DNA from: Chloroflexota bacterium | GTDB taxonomy: Bacteria; Chloroflexota; Dehalococcoidia; Tepidiformales; Tepidiformaceae | Length of the DNA stretch: 64,000 bases | Direction of reading: 5' to 3' | Assembly (NCBI GenBank): GCA_016234445.1 | Contig: JACRBT010000002.1 | Span: 62,001-126,000 of the forward strand | Shown: positions 18,517-28,285 of the stretch, piece by piece | How positions within the stretch are numbered: the stretch's first letter is position 1 | Layout of the letters: every line of letters starts with the position of its first letter | Notes under the pieces: generated by a model | Told to the model about the DNA's origin: nothing | Databases searched by the model: none | What the model saw: the letters and a program-made list of their open reading frames with translations, nothing else | Made by a program: the position numbers and the translations under genes

Positions 18517-18587
18517 GCCGGGAGCGCGGGAACTCTCTCTTGCTCGGCACATGTGTTCTATACTGAGGTCAACCAGCCCGGAAAGAG

Positions 18588-20117
18588 GTGCCCGTGCTCT
18601 ACGGCAAGTGGCGGCCGCGCGGCTTCGACGAGGTCGTCGGACAGGACCATATCGTCACGACGCTGCGAAACGCGCTCGCCACCGGGCAGGTCGCACACGC
18701 GTACCTCTTCAGCGGGCCGCGGGGCACGGGCAAGACCACGACCGCCCGGATCCTCGCGCGCGCGCTCAACTGCGTGAACCTGAAAGACGGCGAACCCTGC
18801 AACGCCTGCCCGTCGTGCGAGGCGATCGCGCGCGGCAACGCCCTCGACCTCGTGGAGATGGACGCCGCCAGCAACCGTGGGATCGAGGACATCCGGGAAC
18901 TCCGCGACCGGATCGCCTTCGCCCCGAGCGACCTCGCCCGCAAGGTCTACCTCCTCGACGAAGTCCACATGCTGACCACGGGGGCGTTCAACGCGCTCCT
19001 GAAGACGCTGGAAGAGCCGCCGCCGCACGCGTTTTTCATCCTCGCCACCACGGAACTTCATCTCGTGCCGGCGACCGTGATGTCGCGCTGCCAGCGCTAC
19101 GACTTCCACCGCGTCCCGAACGAGGCGATCATCGACCGGCTCGGCTACATCGCCGGCCAGGAGGGGTTCAAGGTCCCCCACGAGGGCATGCTGGCAATCG
19201 CCGTGCAGTCCCGGGGCGGCCTCCGCGACGCGATCACGTTGCTGGAACAGGTGGTGGCCCGCTACGGCGAAGAGCCATCGACGGACGACGTGCTCGCGGC
19301 GCTTGGGCTGGTGCACGACGAGCGCAGCGAACTGCTCGCGGCGGCGCTGGTCGACGAAGACCTGGCGGCGGCGCTCGAAATCGCCCGGGCGGTCGCGGAC
19401 GACGGGCTCGACATAGAACGGTTCACACGGGACACGATCAACGTGCTCCGCGAAGTCCTGCCGCACATCGTCCGGGGGACGCCGGCCGCGGACCTGGCCG
19501 GGCACCGCTACCTGGGGATGCTGGAGCGGCTGCGGGAACGGCGGGGGAACGTCCGGGCTATCGCGGCGGCCATCGCGGAGCTGGCGAAGGCGGACTTCAG
19601 GCTCGACCCGGCGAGCCCGGTCCCGCTGGAGGTAGCCTGCGCGAGCGCGATCCTCGGGCCTCTCGAGGCGCCTGTGGCCGCCGTCGCGGCGGGTGGCGGC
19701 GGCGCGGCCGAGCGCCAGGCCGTGCGCGTCCCCCGGAACCAGGCGGCAACGGCGCCAGCGGCCGAATCGCGGGCGAACATGACCCCGGAGCAGGCGTTTC
19801 TGCGCGACCTCTACCAGCACTGCCGTGACACGGACATCAAGATCGCCGGCATGCTCAACGGCTCCTGCGAGGTCGTGGAGATGAACGGCGACGTGCTCGA
19901 ACTTGGCTTCTACTACCCCTTCCACATGGACACGGTCGCCAACAAGGGCCGGGCGCTGGTGGAGGAGCAGGCGGGGAAGATCCTGGGCCACCCGGTGACG
20001 CTGAGGGTGCGGCAGCTCGAGCGCAGCCAGTCATCGTCACGGCAGGGGCCGAAGGGCGGCCACCTGGCCGAGGCGGCGAAGGCGATGGGGGCGACCCCGG
20101 TGAAGAAGGAGAACTGA
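18588..20117 (+). CDS. dnaX: DNA polymerase III subunit gamma/tau
   Basis: YGKWRPRGFDEVVGQDHIVTTLRNAL, FSGPRGTGKTTTARILARALNC, LLDEVHMLTTGAFNALLKTLEEPP. Confidence 0.97.
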   Translation: MPVLYGKWRPRGFDEVVGQDHIVTTLRNALATGQVAHAYLFSGPRGTGKTTTARILARALNCVNLKDGEPCNACPSCEAIARGNALDLVEMDAASNRGIEDIRELRDRIAFAPSDLARKVYLLDEVHMLTTGAFNALLKTLEEPPPHAFFILATTELHLVPATVMSRCQRYDFHRVPNEAIIDRLGYIAGQEGFKVPHEGMLAIAVQSRGGLRDAITLLEQVVARYGEEPSTDDVLAALGLVHDERSELLAAALVDEDLAAALEIARAVADDGLDIERFTRDTINVLREVLPHIVRGTPAADLAGHRYLGMLERLRERRGNVRAIAAAIAELAKADFRLDPASPVPLEVACASAILGPLEAPVAAVAAGGGGAAERQAVRVPRNQAATAPAAESRANMTPEQAFLRDLYQHCRDTDIKIAGMLNGSCEVVEMNGDVLELGFYYPFHMDTVANKGRALVEEQAGKILGHPVTLRVRQLERSQSSSRQGPKGGHLAEAAKAMGATPVKKEN

Positions 20118-20120
20118 TCG

Positions 20121-20504
20121 ATGGCGAAAAGCAGCGGCCGGAACCGCTACATGAGGCGCGGTGGCGCTTCGCTCCCGGGAATGGGTGGTGGTGGCGGCGG
20201 CGGGGCAAATCCGCTGGCGAGTGCCCAGGCGATGCTCGCGAAGGCACAGGAAGAGCTGGCCGCGGCTTCGGTCGAGGGGACGGCCGGCGGCGGCGCCGTG
20301 CGCATCCAGATGTCCGGCGAACAGAAGATTACCGGCATCGCCATCCAGCCCGAGGTGGTGGACCCGGACGACGTCGAGATGCTCCAGGACCTGATCATGG
20401 CCGCGATCGCCGACGCCTCGGAGAAGGCGAACGAACTCCAGGCGAAGTCGTTTGGCGCGATCACCGGCGGTCTGAACATCCCCGGCCTCGGGCCCGGCCT
20501 CTAG
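20121..20504 (+). CDS. YbaB/EbfC nucleoid-associated protein (with N-terminal Gly-rich extension)
   Basis: AQAMLAKAQEELAAASVEG...MSGEQKITGIAIQPEVVDPDDVEMLQDLIMAAIADASEKA; between dnaX and recR. Confidence 0.93.
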   Translation: MAKSSGRNRYMRRGGASLPGMGGGGGGGANPLASAQAMLAKAQEELAAASVEGTAGGGAVRIQMSGEQKITGIAIQPEVVDPDDVEMLQDLIMAAIADASEKANELQAKSFGAITGGLNIPGLGPGL

Positions 20505-20506
20505 GG

Positions 20507-21112
20507 ATGGCCGGCGGGCAGGGAGGGACGCCGGAGCCGATCACCCGCCTGATCGAGGCCTTCCACCGGCTGCCGGGAGTGGGGCCGAAATCGGCGCAGC
20601 GCCTCGCGTACCACATCCTCCGGGTGCCGGAGCAGGAAGCGGCCGCGCTGGCGACGGCGATCGTCGACGTGAAGCAGAGGATCAAGCTCTGTTCGCGCTG
20701 CCTCAACATCACCGAATCCGACCCCTGCGCCATCTGCACCGACGCGCGCCGCGACCAGTCAGTGATCTGCGTTGTCGAACAGCCGCTGGACATCCTCGCC
20801 ATCGAACGGACGGGCTTCCGGGGGCTCTACCACGTCCTCCACGGCGTCCTCAATCCCATGGAGGGCATCGGCCCTGAAGACCTTCGGCTGCGCGAGCTGG
20901 TCGTCCGGCTGAAGGAAGAGGTGACTGAAGTGATCATGGCCACCAACCCCAGCCTGGAAGGGGAAGCGACGGCGATGTACGTGCAGCGCCTGGCGGGGCC
21001 ACTTGGCGTCCGGGTGACGCGGCTGGCCCGGGGGCTGCCAAGCGGCGCGGACCTGGAATACACCGACGACGTCACCCTGTCCCGCGCTTTCGAGGGGCGC
21101 CAGGAGATCTAG
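20507..21112 (+). CDS. recR: Recombination mediator RecR
   Basis: FHRLPGVGPKSAQRLAYHIL, zinc-finger C-x2-C...C-x2-C, TOPRIM VVEQPLDILAIE. Confidence 0.97.
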   Translation: MAGGQGGTPEPITRLIEAFHRLPGVGPKSAQRLAYHILRVPEQEAAALATAIVDVKQRIKLCSRCLNITESDPCAICTDARRDQSVICVVEQPLDILAIERTGFRGLYHVLHGVLNPMEGIGPEDLRLRELVVRLKEEVTEVIMATNPSLEGEATAMYVQRLAGPLGVRVTRLARGLPSGADLEYTDDVTLSRAFEGRQEI

Positions 21113-21114
21113 TC

Positions 21115-21879
21115 ATGGCCGAACGGCCGCGGGTGTACAAGACCGAGGGCGTCATCCTCAAGCGCCGCAACATCGGCGAAGCGGACACCATCTTCACGGT
21201 GCTGAGCGAACGCGAGGGCAAGTTCGACGCGGTCGCGCGGGGGGTGCGAAAGGCGCGGAGCCGGATGCGCGGTCACCTGGAACCCCTGACACGAAGCCGG
21301 CTGATGCTCGCCCAGGGCCGTTCGCTGGACGTGTTCACCCAGGCCGAGACGGTGGACCCCTATCGCAATGTCCGGGAGGACCTGGAGCGCACGGCTGTGG
21401 CGCTCTCCTGCGTCGAACTGGTGGACCGTTTCACCATCGAGCACGCCGAGGCGGGGGCGATCTACCACCTCCTGGTGGCCCTCCTGGAGGCGCTGGACGA
21501 GGGGCTCCAGGCCACGGTGTCGCGCCACTTCGAACTCGACCTCCTTGCGGCGGCGGGCTATGAACTGCAACTGGGGGCCTGCACCCTCTGCGGCGGGCGG
21601 CTCCCGGCGGAAGAGACGCTGCTCGCTCCTGCCGCGGGCGGACTCGTGTGCGCGAACTGCCGCCCGGTGGCGGGCGAGGGCAGGCTCGTGAGCGTCGCGG
21701 TGATCAAGGTGCTGCGCCACGCCCGGTCGGTCGAGATACGCGAGTTCGGCGCCCTGCGGATGCCGCCCGAGGTGGAGGCGGAGCTGCGGGCCGCGCTCGG
21801 GGCCGTCGTGCGCTACCACCTCGACCGCGAACTGAACGTCCCCCGGTACCTCCGCGACGTCGAGGCGCTGCCGGGGTAA
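21115..21879 (+). CDS. recO: DNA repair protein RecO
   Basis: KTEGVILKRRNIGEADTIFTVLSEREGKFDAVARGVRKARSRMRGHLEP; LGACTLCGG. Confidence 0.94.
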   Translation: MAERPRVYKTEGVILKRRNIGEADTIFTVLSEREGKFDAVARGVRKARSRMRGHLEPLTRSRLMLAQGRSLDVFTQAETVDPYRNVREDLERTAVALSCVELVDRFTIEHAEAGAIYHLLVALLEALDEGLQATVSRHFELDLLAAAGYELQLGACTLCGGRLPAEETLLAPAAGGLVCANCRPVAGEGRLVSVAVIKVLRHARSVEIREFGALRMPPEVEAELRAALGAVVRYHLDRELNVPRYLRDVEALPG

Positions 21880-21915
21880 GCGGGCCTAGCAGCACGGACT
21901 CCAGCGGCCCGCGCG

Positions 21916-21944
21916 ATTCCTACGCTATTCCTATGGCGATTCCT
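21916..21944. repeat. Three ATTCCT direct repeats at 11-12 bp spacing (iteron/operator-like)
   Basis: ATTCCT at 21916-21921, 21927-21932 and 21939-21944. Confidence 0.5.
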
Positions 21945-21993
21945 CGCTCGCGGACCCCCGGGCGGACAACTAAGGGATTACCCTATCGATCAA

Positions 21994-22043
21994 CCGGTCA
22001 TCCACCTGCGGGGCGATCCCGTGAACGGGCGGTGGATGACCGG
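21994..22043. repeat. Perfect 13-bp inverted repeat
   Basis: CCGGTCATCCACC (21994-22006) / GGTGGATGACCGG (22031-22043). Confidence 0.85.
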
Positions 22044-22069
22044 AATCGAACGCAGGGGATGCGCCAGGG

Positions 22070-22690
22070 ATGGCCGCAGAGCACGCCAATAACGACCCAC
22101 GCTCCGGCCCCCGGGCGCTCCTCGCCGGGTTCGCCCTCACGGTCGCGACGGCCCTGGTGGTCCTGTTCGCGGCGCTAACCATCGACGCCCGTGCCTACGA
22201 ACTCCACGGGTTTCGCTGGGAGACGGCGGTGGTGGGGTACGAGGCCGACGCGTCGCTCCAGCCCTATGCCGACTCCGCCGCCGGCCGCTGGGGGGCCGTG
22301 AGCGGGTTGGGGTTCCGCGCTGGGCCGGAGATCGGGGTCGTTTTCGCGCCGCTGCTCCCACCGATTGACCATCCTGGCCAGGCCGCCCAGGCGAACGTCG
22401 TCCAGTCTGGCGGCCGGCTGACGTCGTGCGAGATCCGGGTGGACCAGTCCGTATTCGAACAGCTGTCCGAAGCGGCGAGGGAGACGGTGGTGGCCCACGA
22501 GTTCGGTCACTGCATCGGTGTGAACCACTCGACGAAGCCCGGGATCATGAAGAACCCGATGCTTTACGCGTTCAGCGAGGACGACGCGGAGGCCGCGCGG
22601 GCGATCTACGGCGGCCCCCAGGCGACGGCCGCGAGCCATGGCGAGGGGCGGTATCGGACGATAGCGGCGGGCGTAGCTTCGGCGCGGTAA
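22070..22690 (+). CDS. Membrane-anchored/secreted metzincin-type zinc metalloprotease (matrixin-like)
   Basis: N-terminal TM segment; VVAHEFGHCIGVNHS (HExxHxxGxxH) followed by possible Met-turn MKNPMLY. Confidence 0.8.
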   Translation: MAAEHANNDPRSGPRALLAGFALTVATALVVLFAALTIDARAYELHGFRWETAVVGYEADASLQPYADSAAGRWGAVSGLGFRAGPEIGVVFAPLLPPIDHPGQAAQANVVQSGGRLTSCEIRVDQSVFEQLSEAARETVVAHEFGHCIGVNHSTKPGIMKNPMLYAFSEDDAEAARAIYGGPQATAASHGEGRYRTIAAGVASAR

Positions 22691-22775
22691 CGCCAGGGCA
22701 AGAAAACCGGCCCGGAGACTGGCGAACTGGGGCGTTCCGCGCGAAGATGGGCGATACGAGAGGTAACCGGAACCC

Positions 22776-23225
22776 ATGCCCCTGTACGAGTACTTTTGCC
22801 AGTCCTGCAACGGAATCTTCGAAGAACTTCGGCCCATCCGCGAAGCGCGGGAGCCGGTCCCCTGCCCCGAGTGCTACAAGGACGCGGCCCGGATCATGCC
22901 GACGTCGTTCGCGGCGTTCACCTTCCGCGACGGCTACCCCCGCCGCATCCCCGACGACGGGAAGTTCTACCACCTGGAGAAGAAGGTCTCGCGCCTGGTG
23001 AGTTCGGGACGGCCGAACGAGCACCCCGAGATCAACAAGCCGGAACCCAAGAAGAAGCGCAGCAAGGGCGAACTTGAGGAGCTGAAGGATCTGCGCTCCG
23101 CGGCCCGGCGTGGCGAGCTGAGCGACCTCTACGGGAACGCGGTGCGGGCCACGCAGGTCACGCAGATGTACGACAACGGCCGCGTCCTGAAAGTGTCGAC
23201 CCCGGTCAACCCGCCGATCGGCTAG
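22776..23225 (+). CDS. FmdB family zinc-ribbon protein
   Basis: MPLYEYFCQSCNGIFEE...PVPCPECYKDAARI. Confidence 0.88.
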   Translation: MPLYEYFCQSCNGIFEELRPIREAREPVPCPECYKDAARIMPTSFAAFTFRDGYPRRIPDDGKFYHLEKKVSRLVSSGRPNEHPEINKPEPKKKRSKGELEELKDLRSAARRGELSDLYGNAVRATQVTQMYDNGRVLKVSTPVNPPIG

Positions 23226-24199
23226 CTCCGGCGACGGAGGACGTACTCGCCGATCTCTTCGAGACTGCGGCGGCCTTCACTCGCGGGGAGCCGGGAGAGG
23301 GCGTCCGTGCCCCGGCGGACGTATTCCCGCGCCATGTCCATCGACTCGTCGAGGACCGTGGATTCGCGGATCCGGCTGATGGCGTCCTGGAGGTACTCCT
23401 CGCGGCCGCGGCGGGCCGTGAAGAACTTCTTGATTGGGTTCTCGCGCGGGAAGCGCTCCATGAAGAGCAGAGCGGGCAGGGTGATGGTGCCCTCGCGAAG
23501 GTCGCTGCCGACGGGTTTGCCCATCTCCGCCTCGTCGCCGTTGAAGTCGAGGATGTCGTCGACGATCTGGAAGGCCATGCCCAGGCTCCAGCCATAGGTG
23601 CGGAGGGCTTCGACCGTGGATTCGGGGCAGCCACCGAGCATGGCGCCGCCTTCGGTCGCCGTCGCGATTAAGGCCGCCGTCTTGCCACCGATGCGCCAGA
23701 GGTAGTTCTGGATGTCCTTGCTGACGTCGAAGGCAGCTGCATCCTGGTCGAGCTCGCCGCTGGTCATCTTCATAAGGGCGAGGGCAAAGAGGCGAGTGAC
23801 GGGGAGGCTGCCGGTGCGGGTCACCATCTCGGCGGCGTTGGCGAACATGTAGTCGCCGAGGAGGACGGTGAGGGCGTTGTCGAAGATGCTGTTGGCGGTG
23901 GGGCGCCCACGGCGGCTGGCGGCGCCGTCGACGACGTCGTCGTGGACGAGGCTGGCCGTGTGGAGGAGCTCGATCGCGGTCCCGAGGGGGACAAGCCGGT
24001 TGAGGTTGTATTCGCCGAAGGTGCCGGCGAGGAGGACGAGGGCGGGCCGCAGGCGCTTCCCCTTCGCGTCGAGGGCGTGGTCGAGCATCTTCTTGAGCGC
24101 CGGGATTTCGACCTGTTTCGTTGATTCGAGGAGGTCTTCGACGAGGATCATGTCCTCGGCGACGGGGCCGTAGAGCGTCGACAGCGTGGCCTGGATCAT
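23222..24199 (-). CDS. Polyprenyl synthetase (trans-isoprenyl diphosphate synthase)
   Basis: LLHTASLVHDDVVDGAASRRGRPTAN first Asp-rich motif; FQIVDDILDFNGD second Asp-rich motif. Confidence 0.95.
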   Translation of the reverse strand: MIQATLSTLYGPVAEDMILVEDLLESTKQVEIPALKKMLDHALDAKGKRLRPALVLLAGTFGEYNLNRLVPLGTAIELLHTASLVHDDVVDGAASRRGRPTANSIFDNALTVLLGDYMFANAAEMVTRTGSLPVTRLFALALMKMTSGELDQDAAAFDVSKDIQNYLWRIGGKTAALIATATEGGAMLGGCPESTVEALRTYGWSLGMAFQIVDDILDFNGDEAEMGKPVGSDLREGTITLPALLFMERFPRENPIKKFFTARRGREEYLQDAISRIRESTVLDESMDMAREYVRRGTDALSRLPASEGRRSLEEIGEYVLRRRS

Positions 24200-25011
24200 G
24201 CGGCCACCGCCACGGGGACGGCGACAGCGAAGATGCGGGCGGCGGTCGCGGTTGTCGCGGCCGCGACTTCATCGAAGGTCAGACCGCGGAGCGCCGCCAC
24301 GGCCTCGACGGCATGGCGAAGGTGCATCGGTTCGTTGCGCTTGCCGCGGAACGCTTGCGGCGGCAGGTAAGGGCTATCGGTTTCGACCACAAGGGACCCC
24401 AGGGGGAGTGAGGCCGCCAGGAGGCGTCCTTCGCGATTGTTCGGGTAGGTGACCGTGCAGGCAAGGGAGATCGCGAATCCGAGCGCGGTGTAGCGCCGCG
24501 CCTGTTCGAAGTTGCCGCCGAAGCAGTGCATGACCCCGGGTGGACGGCCCTCTGCGGGCAGCGGCGACTGGCGGGCATACGCTTCCAGGTGGCTGAAGAT
24601 CGCGTCCTCGGCGCCGCGGCTGTGGACGCTGACCGGCTTCCCCGTGCGGACGGCGATCTCCAACTGGGCGTCGAGGATCCGGCGCTGATCGTCCTGGGGC
24701 GAATGGTCGCGGAAGAAGTCGAGCCCGATTTCGCCAACGCAGACGACTTCAGGGAGGGAGGCGAGGGATTCGAGTTCAGCCAGCATGGCCGGGGTGACGG
24801 TGCGGGCTTCGTGAGGGTGGAAGCCGACGGCCGGGAAGACGCCCCGGTGGGCCGCCCCGAGTTCGAGCGCGGCGGTGTTGGATGGGCCATCCCAGCCGCA
24901 GACGAGCATGGCGGCGACACCTGCGTCGTTGGCACGGCCGACCGCCTCCGATTCGCTGCCGGCGAAGCCCGGGTCCTGGAGGTGGCAGTGGGTGTCGAAG
25001 AGGGCGGTCAT
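24196..25011 (-). CDS. tatD: TatD family metal-dependent hydrolase/DNase
   Basis: LFDTHCHLQDP, CVGEIGLDFFRDHSPQDDQRRILDAQLEIA, HSRGAEDA, VETDSPYLPP. Confidence 0.95.
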   Translation of the reverse strand: MTALFDTHCHLQDPGFAGSESEAVGRANDAGVAAMLVCGWDGPSNTAALELGAAHRGVFPAVGFHPHEARTVTPAMLAELESLASLPEVVCVGEIGLDFFRDHSPQDDQRRILDAQLEIAVRTGKPVSVHSRGAEDAIFSHLEAYARQSPLPAEGRPPGVMHCFGGNFEQARRYTALGFAISLACTVTYPNNREGRLLAASLPLGSLVVETDSPYLPPQAFRGKRNEPMHLRHAVEAVAALRGLTFDEVAAATTATAARIFAVAVPVAVAA

Positions 25012-26657
25012 GCGCGGACTGCCGCCTCGGTCTCGATCTTCGTATAGAGCGCGCGCTGGGGCTGGAGGACGGTGCCTGCGGCGATCGGCTGGTACTGCCA
25101 GCCGGCATCGAGGATGGTGCCGGGCTGCGAGAGGTCGCCGTGGAGCCGGGCGGTCGAGAACGGGATGATCGGGTGGAGGAGCGTCTTGAGCGCGTTGATG
25201 ACGTTCAGGGTCGTGGCAAGCGTCTCCGCAGCGTGGGCGGTGTCGGTCTTCACGGCCTTCCATGGGGCGCGTTCGTCGAGGTAGCGGTTGGCGGACTGGG
25301 CGAGCTTCAAGGCTTCGCCGAGAGCGCCGCGGAAGTGGCAGTGGTGAAATTCGGAGCCGACGGTTTCGAAGGCCTGGCGGGCTTCGGCGATGAGGGCGGC
25401 GCTTTCGGGCGCGAGTTCGCCGGCGGCCGGGACCACCCCGCCGAAGTTGCGGTGGACCATGGCAATCACGCGGTTTGCGAGGTTGCCCCAGGTCGCGATG
25501 AGGACGTCGTTGTTCGTGCGGATGAGTTCCTCTTCGCGGAACTCGGAGTCGCTGGTCTCGGGCATGATGTGGGTGAGATAGAAGCGGACGACGTCGGCGT
25601 CGTAAGTGTCGAGCAGGTTGAGGACCCAGGTGCCGGTGCCCTTCGACTTGCTCTGCTTTTGGCCGGCCGAGAAGTTCACATACTGGTTGGCGGGCACGTC
25701 GAAGGGGAGATTCATGCTTTCATAGCCGAGGAGCATGGCGGGCCAGATGATCGTGTGGAAGGGGATGTTGTCCTTGCCGATGAAGTAGTAGGACTTCGCG
25801 GCGGGGTCGAGCCAGAAGCGCTTCCAGTCGTCGGGTTTGCCGGCGCGCTGGGCCCACTCGCGGGTCGCCGAAAGGTAGCCGATCACGGCGTCGAACCAGA
25901 CGTAGATTCGCTTCGAGTCGTAGCCTTCGACCGGGACCGGGACGCCCCAGCTGATGTCGCGGGTGATTGCACGATCCTTGAGCCCTTCGTTGAGCGCCCC
26001 CAGCGTAAAGTTCAGGACGTTCCGCCTCCAGTGCGCCTGCTTACCGACCCACTCCTTCAACTCGCTTTCGAGGGCGGTCAGCTTCAGGAAGAAGTGCTCG
26101 GAGGGCCGGACGATGGGCGTGGCCCCGGTGATCCGGCTGCGGGGATTGATGAGGTCGACGGCGTCGAGTTGGGAGCCGCAATTGTCGCACTGGTCGCCGC
26201 GGGCCTCTTCGTAGCCGCAGTGGGGGCACTTGCCTTCGACGTAGCGGTCAGGGAGGAAGCGGTCGGCCTGCTCGTCATAAAGCTGGTCCTGGGTATGGCG
26301 GTAGAGGAGGCCAGCCTGGAGCAGGCGAAGGAAGACTTCCTGGGTCGTGCGGTAGTGGTTCTCGGTGAGTGTCGTCGTGTAGCAGTCGAAGCTGATGCCA
26401 AGGCGGTCCCAGACTTCGAGGATCTTCTCGTGGTAGCGGTCGACGATGACGCGGGGCTCGACGCCCTCCTTGTCGGCGGTCACGGTGATCGGCGTGCCGT
26501 GGCAGTCGGAGCCTGAGACCATGACGACTTCGTTGCCGGACAGGCGTTCATAGCGCGCGAAGATGTCGGCGGGGAGATAGGCGCCAGCCGCCTGCCCGAC
26601 ATGCAGGAAGTAATTGGCGTAGGGCCAGGCCACGCAAACGAGAATCCTGTCGGGCAC
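25008..26657 (-). CDS. metG: Methionyl-tRNA synthetase
   Basis: ILVCVAWPYANYFLHVGQAAGAYLPADIFARYERL, zinc-binding CPHCGYEEARGDQCDNCG, FSAGQKQSKSKGTGTW; start GTG chosen at VPDRILVCVAWPY. Confidence 0.94.
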   Translation of the reverse strand: MPDRILVCVAWPYANYFLHVGQAAGAYLPADIFARYERLSGNEVVMVSGSDCHGTPITVTADKEGVEPRVIVDRYHEKILEVWDRLGISFDCYTTTLTENHYRTTQEVFLRLLQAGLLYRHTQDQLYDEQADRFLPDRYVEGKCPHCGYEEARGDQCDNCGSQLDAVDLINPRSRITGATPIVRPSEHFFLKLTALESELKEWVGKQAHWRRNVLNFTLGALNEGLKDRAITRDISWGVPVPVEGYDSKRIYVWFDAVIGYLSATREWAQRAGKPDDWKRFWLDPAAKSYYFIGKDNIPFHTIIWPAMLLGYESMNLPFDVPANQYVNFSAGQKQSKSKGTGTWVLNLLDTYDADVVRFYLTHIMPETSDSEFREEELIRTNNDVLIATWGNLANRVIAMVHRNFGGVVPAAGELAPESAALIAEARQAFETVGSEFHHCHFRGALGEALKLAQSANRYLDERAPWKAVKTDTAHAAETLATTLNVINALKTLLHPIIPFSTARLHGDLSQPGTILDAGWQYQPIAAGTVLQPQRALYTKIETEAAVRA

Positions 26658-26784
26658 CGGGCGGGTTACCTCAGATGGTGGGGTCTCCCGAAGTCTAACA
26701 TAGGGCCCGGTCAGGAACCCGGCGGGCGGGCGTGGCGCCACGGCCGCGGCCGCCGTAGTCTCTGGGCATAACCGCTCCCGGAGA

Positions 26785-27624
26785 TTGCCCGTGACCTCCC
26801 CCCAGATTGAGATCCCGCCCCCGTCGCCGGACGACGTGCTGTACGAGAAGCGCGAGGGGTACGCCCTTATCACGCTCAACCGGCCGGTGGTGCTGAACGC
26901 CATCAACTGGTCGATCCTGCGGCGGCTGAAGGTGGCCCTGGACCAGGCCGAAGGCGACGACGAGGTGAAGGCGGTCATCCTCACCGGGGCCGGGCGAGCG
27001 TTCTCCGCCGGCGGCGACATCCAGTCCACACCGCCGCCCGACAGCGACCCCACGCCGAGCGGCATGGACGTCAACATGCAGATTTGGGAGATGCCGAAGC
27101 CAGTGATCGCGGCGGTGCGGGGATATGCCGTCGGGCAGGGGACGCAGCTGGCGGGCATGTGCGACATGACCATCGCCGCGGACGACGCGGTGTTCGGGGA
27201 ACTCCAGATCCGGCACGGGTTCGGGCCGCCGGTGCTGGTCACGCCGTTCCTCGTGGGGATGAAGCAGGCGAAGGAGATGCTGCTGCTGGGTGAACGGATC
27301 AACGCTGCTGAAGCGCTGCGCCTGGGCCTGGTGAACCGGGTGGTGCCCGGCGAGCGGCTGATGGACGAAGCGATCGAGGTGGCGAAGAAGCTGGCGGCGC
27401 TGCCGGAGAAGACGGTGCGGCTGAACAAGGTGCTCGTGAACCGGGCCTACGAACTGGCGGGATTCCGGGAAGCGCTGGCCTACCGCGACGACCCCGGCGT
27501 GGCGGCGCTGGCGGCGCCGGGCAGCCGTGATGCCGACCCGCACCTCCGCGTGCTGCGGGAGCAAGGTTGGGAGGCGTTCCGGAAGTCGCGCGACGAACTC
27601 TACCGCGGCGAGGAAAAGAAGTAG
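26785..27624 (+). CDS. Enoyl-CoA hydratase/isomerase family protein
   Basis: YALITLNRPVVLNAINWSILRRL, ILTGAGRAFSAGGDI, VRGYAVGQGTQLAGMCDMTIAADDAVFGELQIRHGF. Confidence 0.93.
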   Translation: MPVTSPQIEIPPPSPDDVLYEKREGYALITLNRPVVLNAINWSILRRLKVALDQAEGDDEVKAVILTGAGRAFSAGGDIQSTPPPDSDPTPSGMDVNMQIWEMPKPVIAAVRGYAVGQGTQLAGMCDMTIAADDAVFGELQIRHGFGPPVLVTPFLVGMKQAKEMLLLGERINAAEALRLGLVNRVVPGERLMDEAIEVAKKLAALPEKTVRLNKVLVNRAYELAGFREALAYRDDPGVAALAAPGSRDADPHLRVLREQGWEAFRKSRDELYRGEEKK

Positions 27625-27628
27625 CGGC

Positions 27629-27844
27629 TCATGCGACGATGCGGCGGGGAGACCGGCGGCGAGCCTGATACTGGCTGATCTGGCTCGGTTCGCTGGCGCG
27701 GCGATAGTCGCGGCCGGTGCGTGGCCGTGAGCCCACGGCGGGGAGGCGGTTTGCCCGGTATTCGTAGACCATGCCGGCGATGATGGCGAGGGCGGAGCCG
27801 ATGAGGAAGGCGTCGAAGAGGATGGTGAGGACTGGATTGACCAC
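27629..27844 (-). CDS. Small single-pass membrane protein (71 aa, uncharacterised)
   Basis: MVNPVLTILFDAFLIGSALAIIAGMVYEYRANRL with basic C-terminal tail; near-consensus promoter upstream (27877-27905). Confidence 0.6.
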   Translation of the reverse strand: MVNPVLTILFDAFLIGSALAIIAGMVYEYRANRLPAVGSRPRTGRDYRRASEPSQISQYQARRRSPRRIVA

Positions 27845-27876
27845 GGTAGCAGCACATCCGTTCGTATGGTGCGGAG

Positions 27877-27905
27877 AGCATAAAGAACGGTTGTTCGCAT
27901 GTCAA
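27877..27905 (-). promoter_or_regulatory. Promoter TTGACA-17-TATGCT with GAACGGTTGTTC palindrome (27885-27896) inside the spacer; LexA/Cheo-box-like
   Basis: On the minus strand: TTGACA TGC GAACAACCGTTC TT TATGCT. Confidence 0.6.
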
Positions 27906-27922
27906 CACAAATGTTCTGTTTC

Positions 27923-27994: not shown

Positions 27995-28285
27995 ATGGTG
28001 GCGTTCGTGACCGCCCCGCGCGGTTTTTACGGGCCTTCGGAGCGCGCCCTGGCGTTCGGGGCGCAGTACGCCGAAGTCCTGGCGCGCTGGGGGGAGATGT
28101 TCTCCGCCGCCAGCGCCCTCGTCGCGGCGAACGTGACCCTGGGGCAGATGACGGCGGACGCTTCGAAAGAGTTCGAACAGTGGCTCACGGAGACCGCGAG
28201 CGCGCCCTGGAACTGGCTCAACCCGGAGACGATGCAGCGCTTCATGCGGGGGATGACGGGCACGGCGGGCGCTTCGAAGGAGTAG
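27995..28285 (+). CDS. Small phasin-like/hypothetical protein
   Basis: 96-aa ORF, amphipathic helix-rich sequence (ERALAFGAQYAEVLARWGEMFSAASALVAANVTLGQMTADASKEFEQWL). Confidence 0.55.
   Translation: MVAFVTAPRGFYGPSERALAFGAQYAEVLARWGEMFSAASALVAANVTLGQMTADASKEFEQWLTETASAPWNWLNPETMQRFMRGMTGTAGASKE

Follow-up and report, generated by a model that had tools for sequence, protein, structure and literature searches.

The small gene and its locus

The window, which is the whole 64-kb stretch of DNA that was analyzed, carries on its minus strand a small gene with a promoter and three putative LexA operators. The features of this locus are the following:

27629..27844, minus strand: gene of the 71-aa small membrane protein, GTG start; homologs in 33/38 genomes of the Tepidiformaceae
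27629..27649, minus strand: C-terminal PRRIVA and stop codon, ClpX C-motif-2-like (basic pair, V/A and A)
27852..27863, minus strand: LexA box 3, GAACGGATGTGC, in the predicted 5' leader; rank 4 in the window by the weight matrix described below
27854..27859, minus strand: GGATGT within box 3, resembling a Shine-Dalgarno sequence (one mismatch to GGAGGT) and located 9 nt ahead of the GTG start
27877..27882, minus strand: -10 hexamer TATGCT, separated from the -35 hexamer by a 17-bp spacer
27885..27896, minus strand: LexA box 2, GAACAACCGTTC, in the promoter spacer; rank 1 by the matrix
27900..27905, minus strand: -35 hexamer TTGACA, read directly; TTGAC is present in all homolog promoters
27905..27916, minus strand: LexA box 1, GAACATTTGTGT; rank 3 by the matrix

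Judged from the presence of homologs in 33 of the 38 family genomes and from low pN/pS values, the small gene is a real gene. In the closest homolog pairs pN/pS is approximately 0.1-0.25, indicating that the small ORF is under selection at the protein level, and in more distant pairs it is approximately 1 or above because the tail of the protein drifts. The homologs were collected with a single-sequence search that was extended by a profile and include those of Tepidiforma flava YIM 72310 and Tepidiforma sp. KatS3mg062/064, named members by which the family is recognized as the Tepidiformaceae (Dehalococcoidia). Several of the five family genomes without a clear copy are incomplete. Outside the family, matches in 8 of 355 other genomes of the class had E values of 0.001-0.01, which is about chance level, and were not counted. 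Within the class, the small gene thus far appears to be specific to the Tepidiformaceae. In one genome (G016), the small gene is present twice, both times with a full promoter (G016:C24:13272-13484 and G016:C47:3527-3736).

A 96-aa ORF (window 27995-28285, plus strand) lies divergently to the small gene; its product is helical and phasin-like by eye, and no Pfam family was found for it. In roughly half of the loci with a homolog, this ORF adjoins the small gene, and in others it is absent. Therefore, the conserved unit consists of the small gene and its own promoter, and predicting a function from the neighboring genes was rejected. In this genome (window 18588-27844) and in several other genera (G006:C27, G019:C9, G009:C3, G028:C158, G025:C2 and G035:C68), the small gene is located approximately 9-17 kb from dnaX. 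This proximity across genera suggests that the locus is inherited vertically.

The promoter and its three operators

The initial annotation described a TTGACA-N17-TATGCT promoter on the minus strand (27877-27905), and direct reading of the letters gives the same hexamers with a spacer of 17. The palindrome that it placed in this spacer is also confirmed and is the best-scoring site of the window when a matrix of lexA and recA sites is used. That box is real, but two further boxes, one on either side of it, were missed. Box 1 overlaps the first base of the -35 hexamer at its upstream end and is 20 bp from box 2, and box 3 is 33 bp from box 2.

As a bare 12-mer, GAACN4GTTC is found once in the 64-kb window where 0.89 occurrences are expected; this is chance level, and the motif by itself was rejected as evidence. 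A weight matrix trained only on the lexA and recA sites of the family and then applied to the window places the three boxes of this promoter 1st, 3rd and 4th among approximately 64,000 positions. The promoter is also the only place in the window where three boxes cluster within 70 bp, and of 17 further promoter loci that were inspected in this genome, none has the three-box arrangement.

The arrangement is conserved with the gene. All three boxes are present in 23 of 25 homolog promoters and two boxes in the other two, with a spacing of 19-21 bp between boxes 1 and 2 and about 32-36 bp between boxes 2 and 3. A composite pattern of two boxes and the -35 region (GAACN4GTGTTGACN3-5RNACN4GTNC) occurs in 25 of the 38 family genomes, once in each except for two occurrences in G016, and precedes the small gene in every case. 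The same pattern was found neither in the control orientation nor in the 355 other genomes of the class. In one genus, it revealed divergent homologs that had been missed by the single-sequence search, so the promoter is distinctive enough to find divergent members.

The centers of boxes 1 and 2 vary among homologs, whereas the center of box 3, CGGATGT, is invariant (25/25). Since this center contains GGATGT, which resembles GGAGGT and lies 9 nt before the GTG start, box 3 is most simply interpreted as also serving as the ribosome-binding site, with operator and ribosome site overlapping.

The LexA motif and regulon of the genome

The genome encodes one LexA, in which the usual Ala-Gly cleavage site and the C-terminal Ser and Lys residues can be recognized by eye. 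Its gene is located on contig C5 and the small gene on contig C20. The initial annotation took GAACN4GTTC to be the LexA operator and had set a check beforehand, namely whether the lexA and recA promoters of the genome use another motif. When this was examined, the same motif was found: exact or with one mismatch, it is present upstream of 29 of the 31 lexA loci and of every one of the 30 recA loci that were scanned across the family. The box of recA in this genome is GAACATTTGTTT. In the whole genome GAACN4GTTC occurs 72 times, compared with 26 times for a reversed control pattern, indicating that a real subset of these sites exists.

Perfect boxes in this genome precede lexA, uvrA, uvrB, two Y-family polymerase genes, a PHP/PolIII-alpha (dnaE2-like) gene and a radical SAM gene, in a regulon list that is based on pattern matches. 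A perfect LexA-type box is also found upstream of a class II ribonucleotide reductase gene and a DUF5131 (gp37/68-like) gene (L120:1562-1573, L005:1501-1512). The protein families of these regulon genes were confirmed. Within the window, dnaX (DNA polymerase III gamma/tau; 18588-20117, plus strand) has a LexA-like box, GCACATGTGTTC, at 18547-18558. This box has the second-best matrix score in the window and is located directly before the TATACT -10 hexamer of dnaX, and a box with a score of 10 or more is present in 28 of the 30 dnaX promoters of the family. Such regulation of dnaX by LexA would appear to be unusual.

The promoter of the small gene carries the operator motif of the genome's own lexA and recA, and the position of the operators is kept in the orthologs. 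On these grounds, the small gene is almost certainly under LexA control, and its product is very probably a DNA damage-induced effector.

The small membrane protein

The homologs are 66-99 aa long and share the consensus MVNPxLTILFDLFLIGSAxxIxxAMxxExxxxRxPxVG, which is followed by a basic, variable tail. The initial annotation as a single-TM protein with a basic tail agrees with the AlphaFold2 model of the 71-aa product, in which residues 4-31 form one high-confidence N-terminal TM helix and the poorly conserved tail, ending in PRRIVA, is of low confidence. All 26 homologs have a net basic tail, and none of them has a Lys or Arg in the first ten residues. Following the positive-inside rule, the predicted topology is N-out/C-in. 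Residues T7, D11 and L14 are conserved in the helix; T7 is invariant, and D11, despite its position inside a hydrophobic helix, is present in 22 of 26 homologs, the others having Gln or Glu instead. The periodicity of conservation along the helix peaks at 100 degrees, which is not significant (p ~0.08), and the helical-face analysis is suggestive only.

In most homologs, the tail contains 21-31% Lys and Arg and has a net charge of +9 to +15. Its sequence varies rapidly while its charge is constant, and only the very end is kept, with RRKAA, RRLAA, RRVA and RRAS as recurring ends. A terminal [AVI][AS] with a basic residue just ahead of it is found in 21 of 26 homologs against 0.7 expected from shuffled tails, a comparison that is descriptive since the homologs are not independent. 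Known C-motifs of ClpX include LAA, RRKKAI, RAKKVA and HIKKAS (PMC9775585). The homolog ends resemble such tags, either as C-motif 1 (xAA) or as C-motif 2 (a basic pair, then V/A and A/S/I). In sequence searches against Pfam, NCBIfam, PHROGs, PADLOC and the PDB, nothing above chance was found for the small protein.

Proposed function

The small gene would belong to the core of the LexA (SOS) regulon in the Tepidiformaceae and be tightly repressed. In undamaged cells, LexA would occupy the three operators over the -35 hexamer, the spacer and the leader with the ribosome-binding site, so that almost no product would be made. Upon DNA damage, RecA-stimulated self-cleavage of LexA would free the near-consensus promoter. 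The protein is predicted to insert its single helix into the membrane with the N-terminus outside and the Arg-rich tail in the cytoplasm. A helix face that includes T7, D11, L14 and E28 would most likely bind a membrane protein of the divisome, such as FtsW, and septation would be held back. Once LexA returns, the basic-Val/Ala-Ala tag at the C-terminus could lead to removal of the protein by a ClpX-type protease.

The best inference, with a probability of roughly 0.55, is that the protein is an SOS division inhibitor comparable to YneA or SidA, as the initial annotation already suggested by analogy. As in the class of YneA, ChiZ, SosA and SidA, a small protein with a predicted single N-terminal TM helix is combined with a LexA operator at the promoter, and the genome has FtsZ and three genes of the FtsW/RodA family. 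Sequence searches detected no homology to known division inhibitors. A more specific form of this reading is put forward tentatively: a lineage-specific SOS checkpoint protein of inverted topology, whose TM helix with its buried Asp would contact a divisome membrane protein inside the bilayer and whose cytoplasmic Arg-rich tail would contact the nucleoid or the FtsZ side, with operator and ribosome-binding site fused for its control and a built-in ClpX tag for its removal.

Other functions can be considered for an SOS-induced protein of this shape. A membrane toxin or dormancy peptide, with an effect like that of TisB, would multimerize through its helix, lower the proton-motive force and slow growth during repair. 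The hydrophobic helix is small and contains a conserved charged residue, which would suit such a role, as would the very tight predicted repression, in which the triple operators would reflect toxicity. TisB of Escherichia coli is a small LexA-controlled membrane peptide of about 29 aa, without a basic tail, and is paired with an antisense RNA. The Tepidiformaceae protein, in contrast, is longer (66-99 aa) and has a long basic tail, the specific conservation of an Asp and a Thr suggests that it has a defined partner and does not form a pore, and its divergent neighbor is read as a protein gene, which makes this role rather unlikely.

The charge of the tail, constant despite sequence change, would also be expected of a membrane anchor with an Arg-rich cytoplasmic part through which nucleoid DNA or ribosomes would be bound and kept at the membrane while repair proceeds. 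However, basic residues that follow a TM helix also serve as the ordinary topology signal, and the tail has no DNA-binding motif and is unconserved in sequence except for its very end, so an anchor is considered unlikely. Still less probable is an SOS-controlled protein with a housekeeping role in the membrane, such as an accessory subunit or an adaptor for a protease or transporter, that is needed more after damage. The function cannot be read from the sequence and weak matches are at chance level, which would suit such a role, but with three operators, one of them over the ribosome site, basal expression is predicted to be near zero, which fits a conditional effector better. Finally, it is highly improbable that the boxes are due to chance or bind another repressor, with the small gene outside the SOS regulon: a single GAACN4GTTC is expected ~0.9 times in 64 kb, but the triple arrangement is conserved in the family, the boxes rank high by the matrix and the motif is identical to the lexA and recA operators.

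Comparison with known systems

A literature search turned up no work on the LexA regulon or on SOS effectors of this lineage, and no described DNA damage checkpoint effector in Chloroflexota. The small protein is apparently undescribed and outside every known family tested, and it apparently works like a known kind of effector. As an SOS division inhibitor, it would be a specific checkpoint-effector candidate for Chloroflexota, with Tepidiforma flava YIM 72310 as a named strain carrying the gene. It would also be a further independent case in which bacteria, as they have done repeatedly, evolved an unrelated small membrane protein as an SOS effector.

Multiple unrelated small single-TM proteins of the SOS response halt cell division at a late stage, several of them through FtsW (PMC13396833; PMC4211646). 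YneA of Bacillus, ChiZ of Mycobacterium and SosA of Staphylococcus are likewise small, single-TM and DNA damage-induced, as is presumed here, and no sequence similarity to the small protein was found for any of them. They act with an extracytoplasmic C-terminal part, which contains LysM in YneA and ChiZ, whereas the basic tail of the Tepidiformaceae protein is predicted to be cytoplasmic. YneA binds FtsW (TM7) via its own TM helix (PMC13396833) and needs its extracellular LysM domain for activity, and the C-in topology predicted here is the reverse. Neither LysM nor any other Pfam family was found above the cut-off in the small protein, and the homology to YneA and the location beside lexA that mark the YneA family were likewise not found.

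SidA and DidA of Caulobacter are very small single-TM, damage-induced division inhibitors as well, and DidA also has 71 aa (PMC4211646); no sequence similarity to the small protein was found for either. The LexA box of Caulobacter is GTTCN7GTTC, compared with GAACN4GTTC in the Tepidiformaceae. DidA does not depend on the SOS response, and its target is the periplasmic part of FtsN, whereas the small gene described here has LexA boxes.

The control logic is matched by recN of E. coli, in which three SOS boxes are combined with C-terminal recognition by ClpXP (PMC10714372). RecN, for which up to three sites have been described (PMC3323433), is present only in damaged cells (PMC10714372). It is a large cytoplasmic SMC-like repair protein and unrelated to the small membrane protein. 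In the Tepidiformaceae, the same logic of a triple operator and a putative degradation tag would thus be found on a membrane micro-protein.
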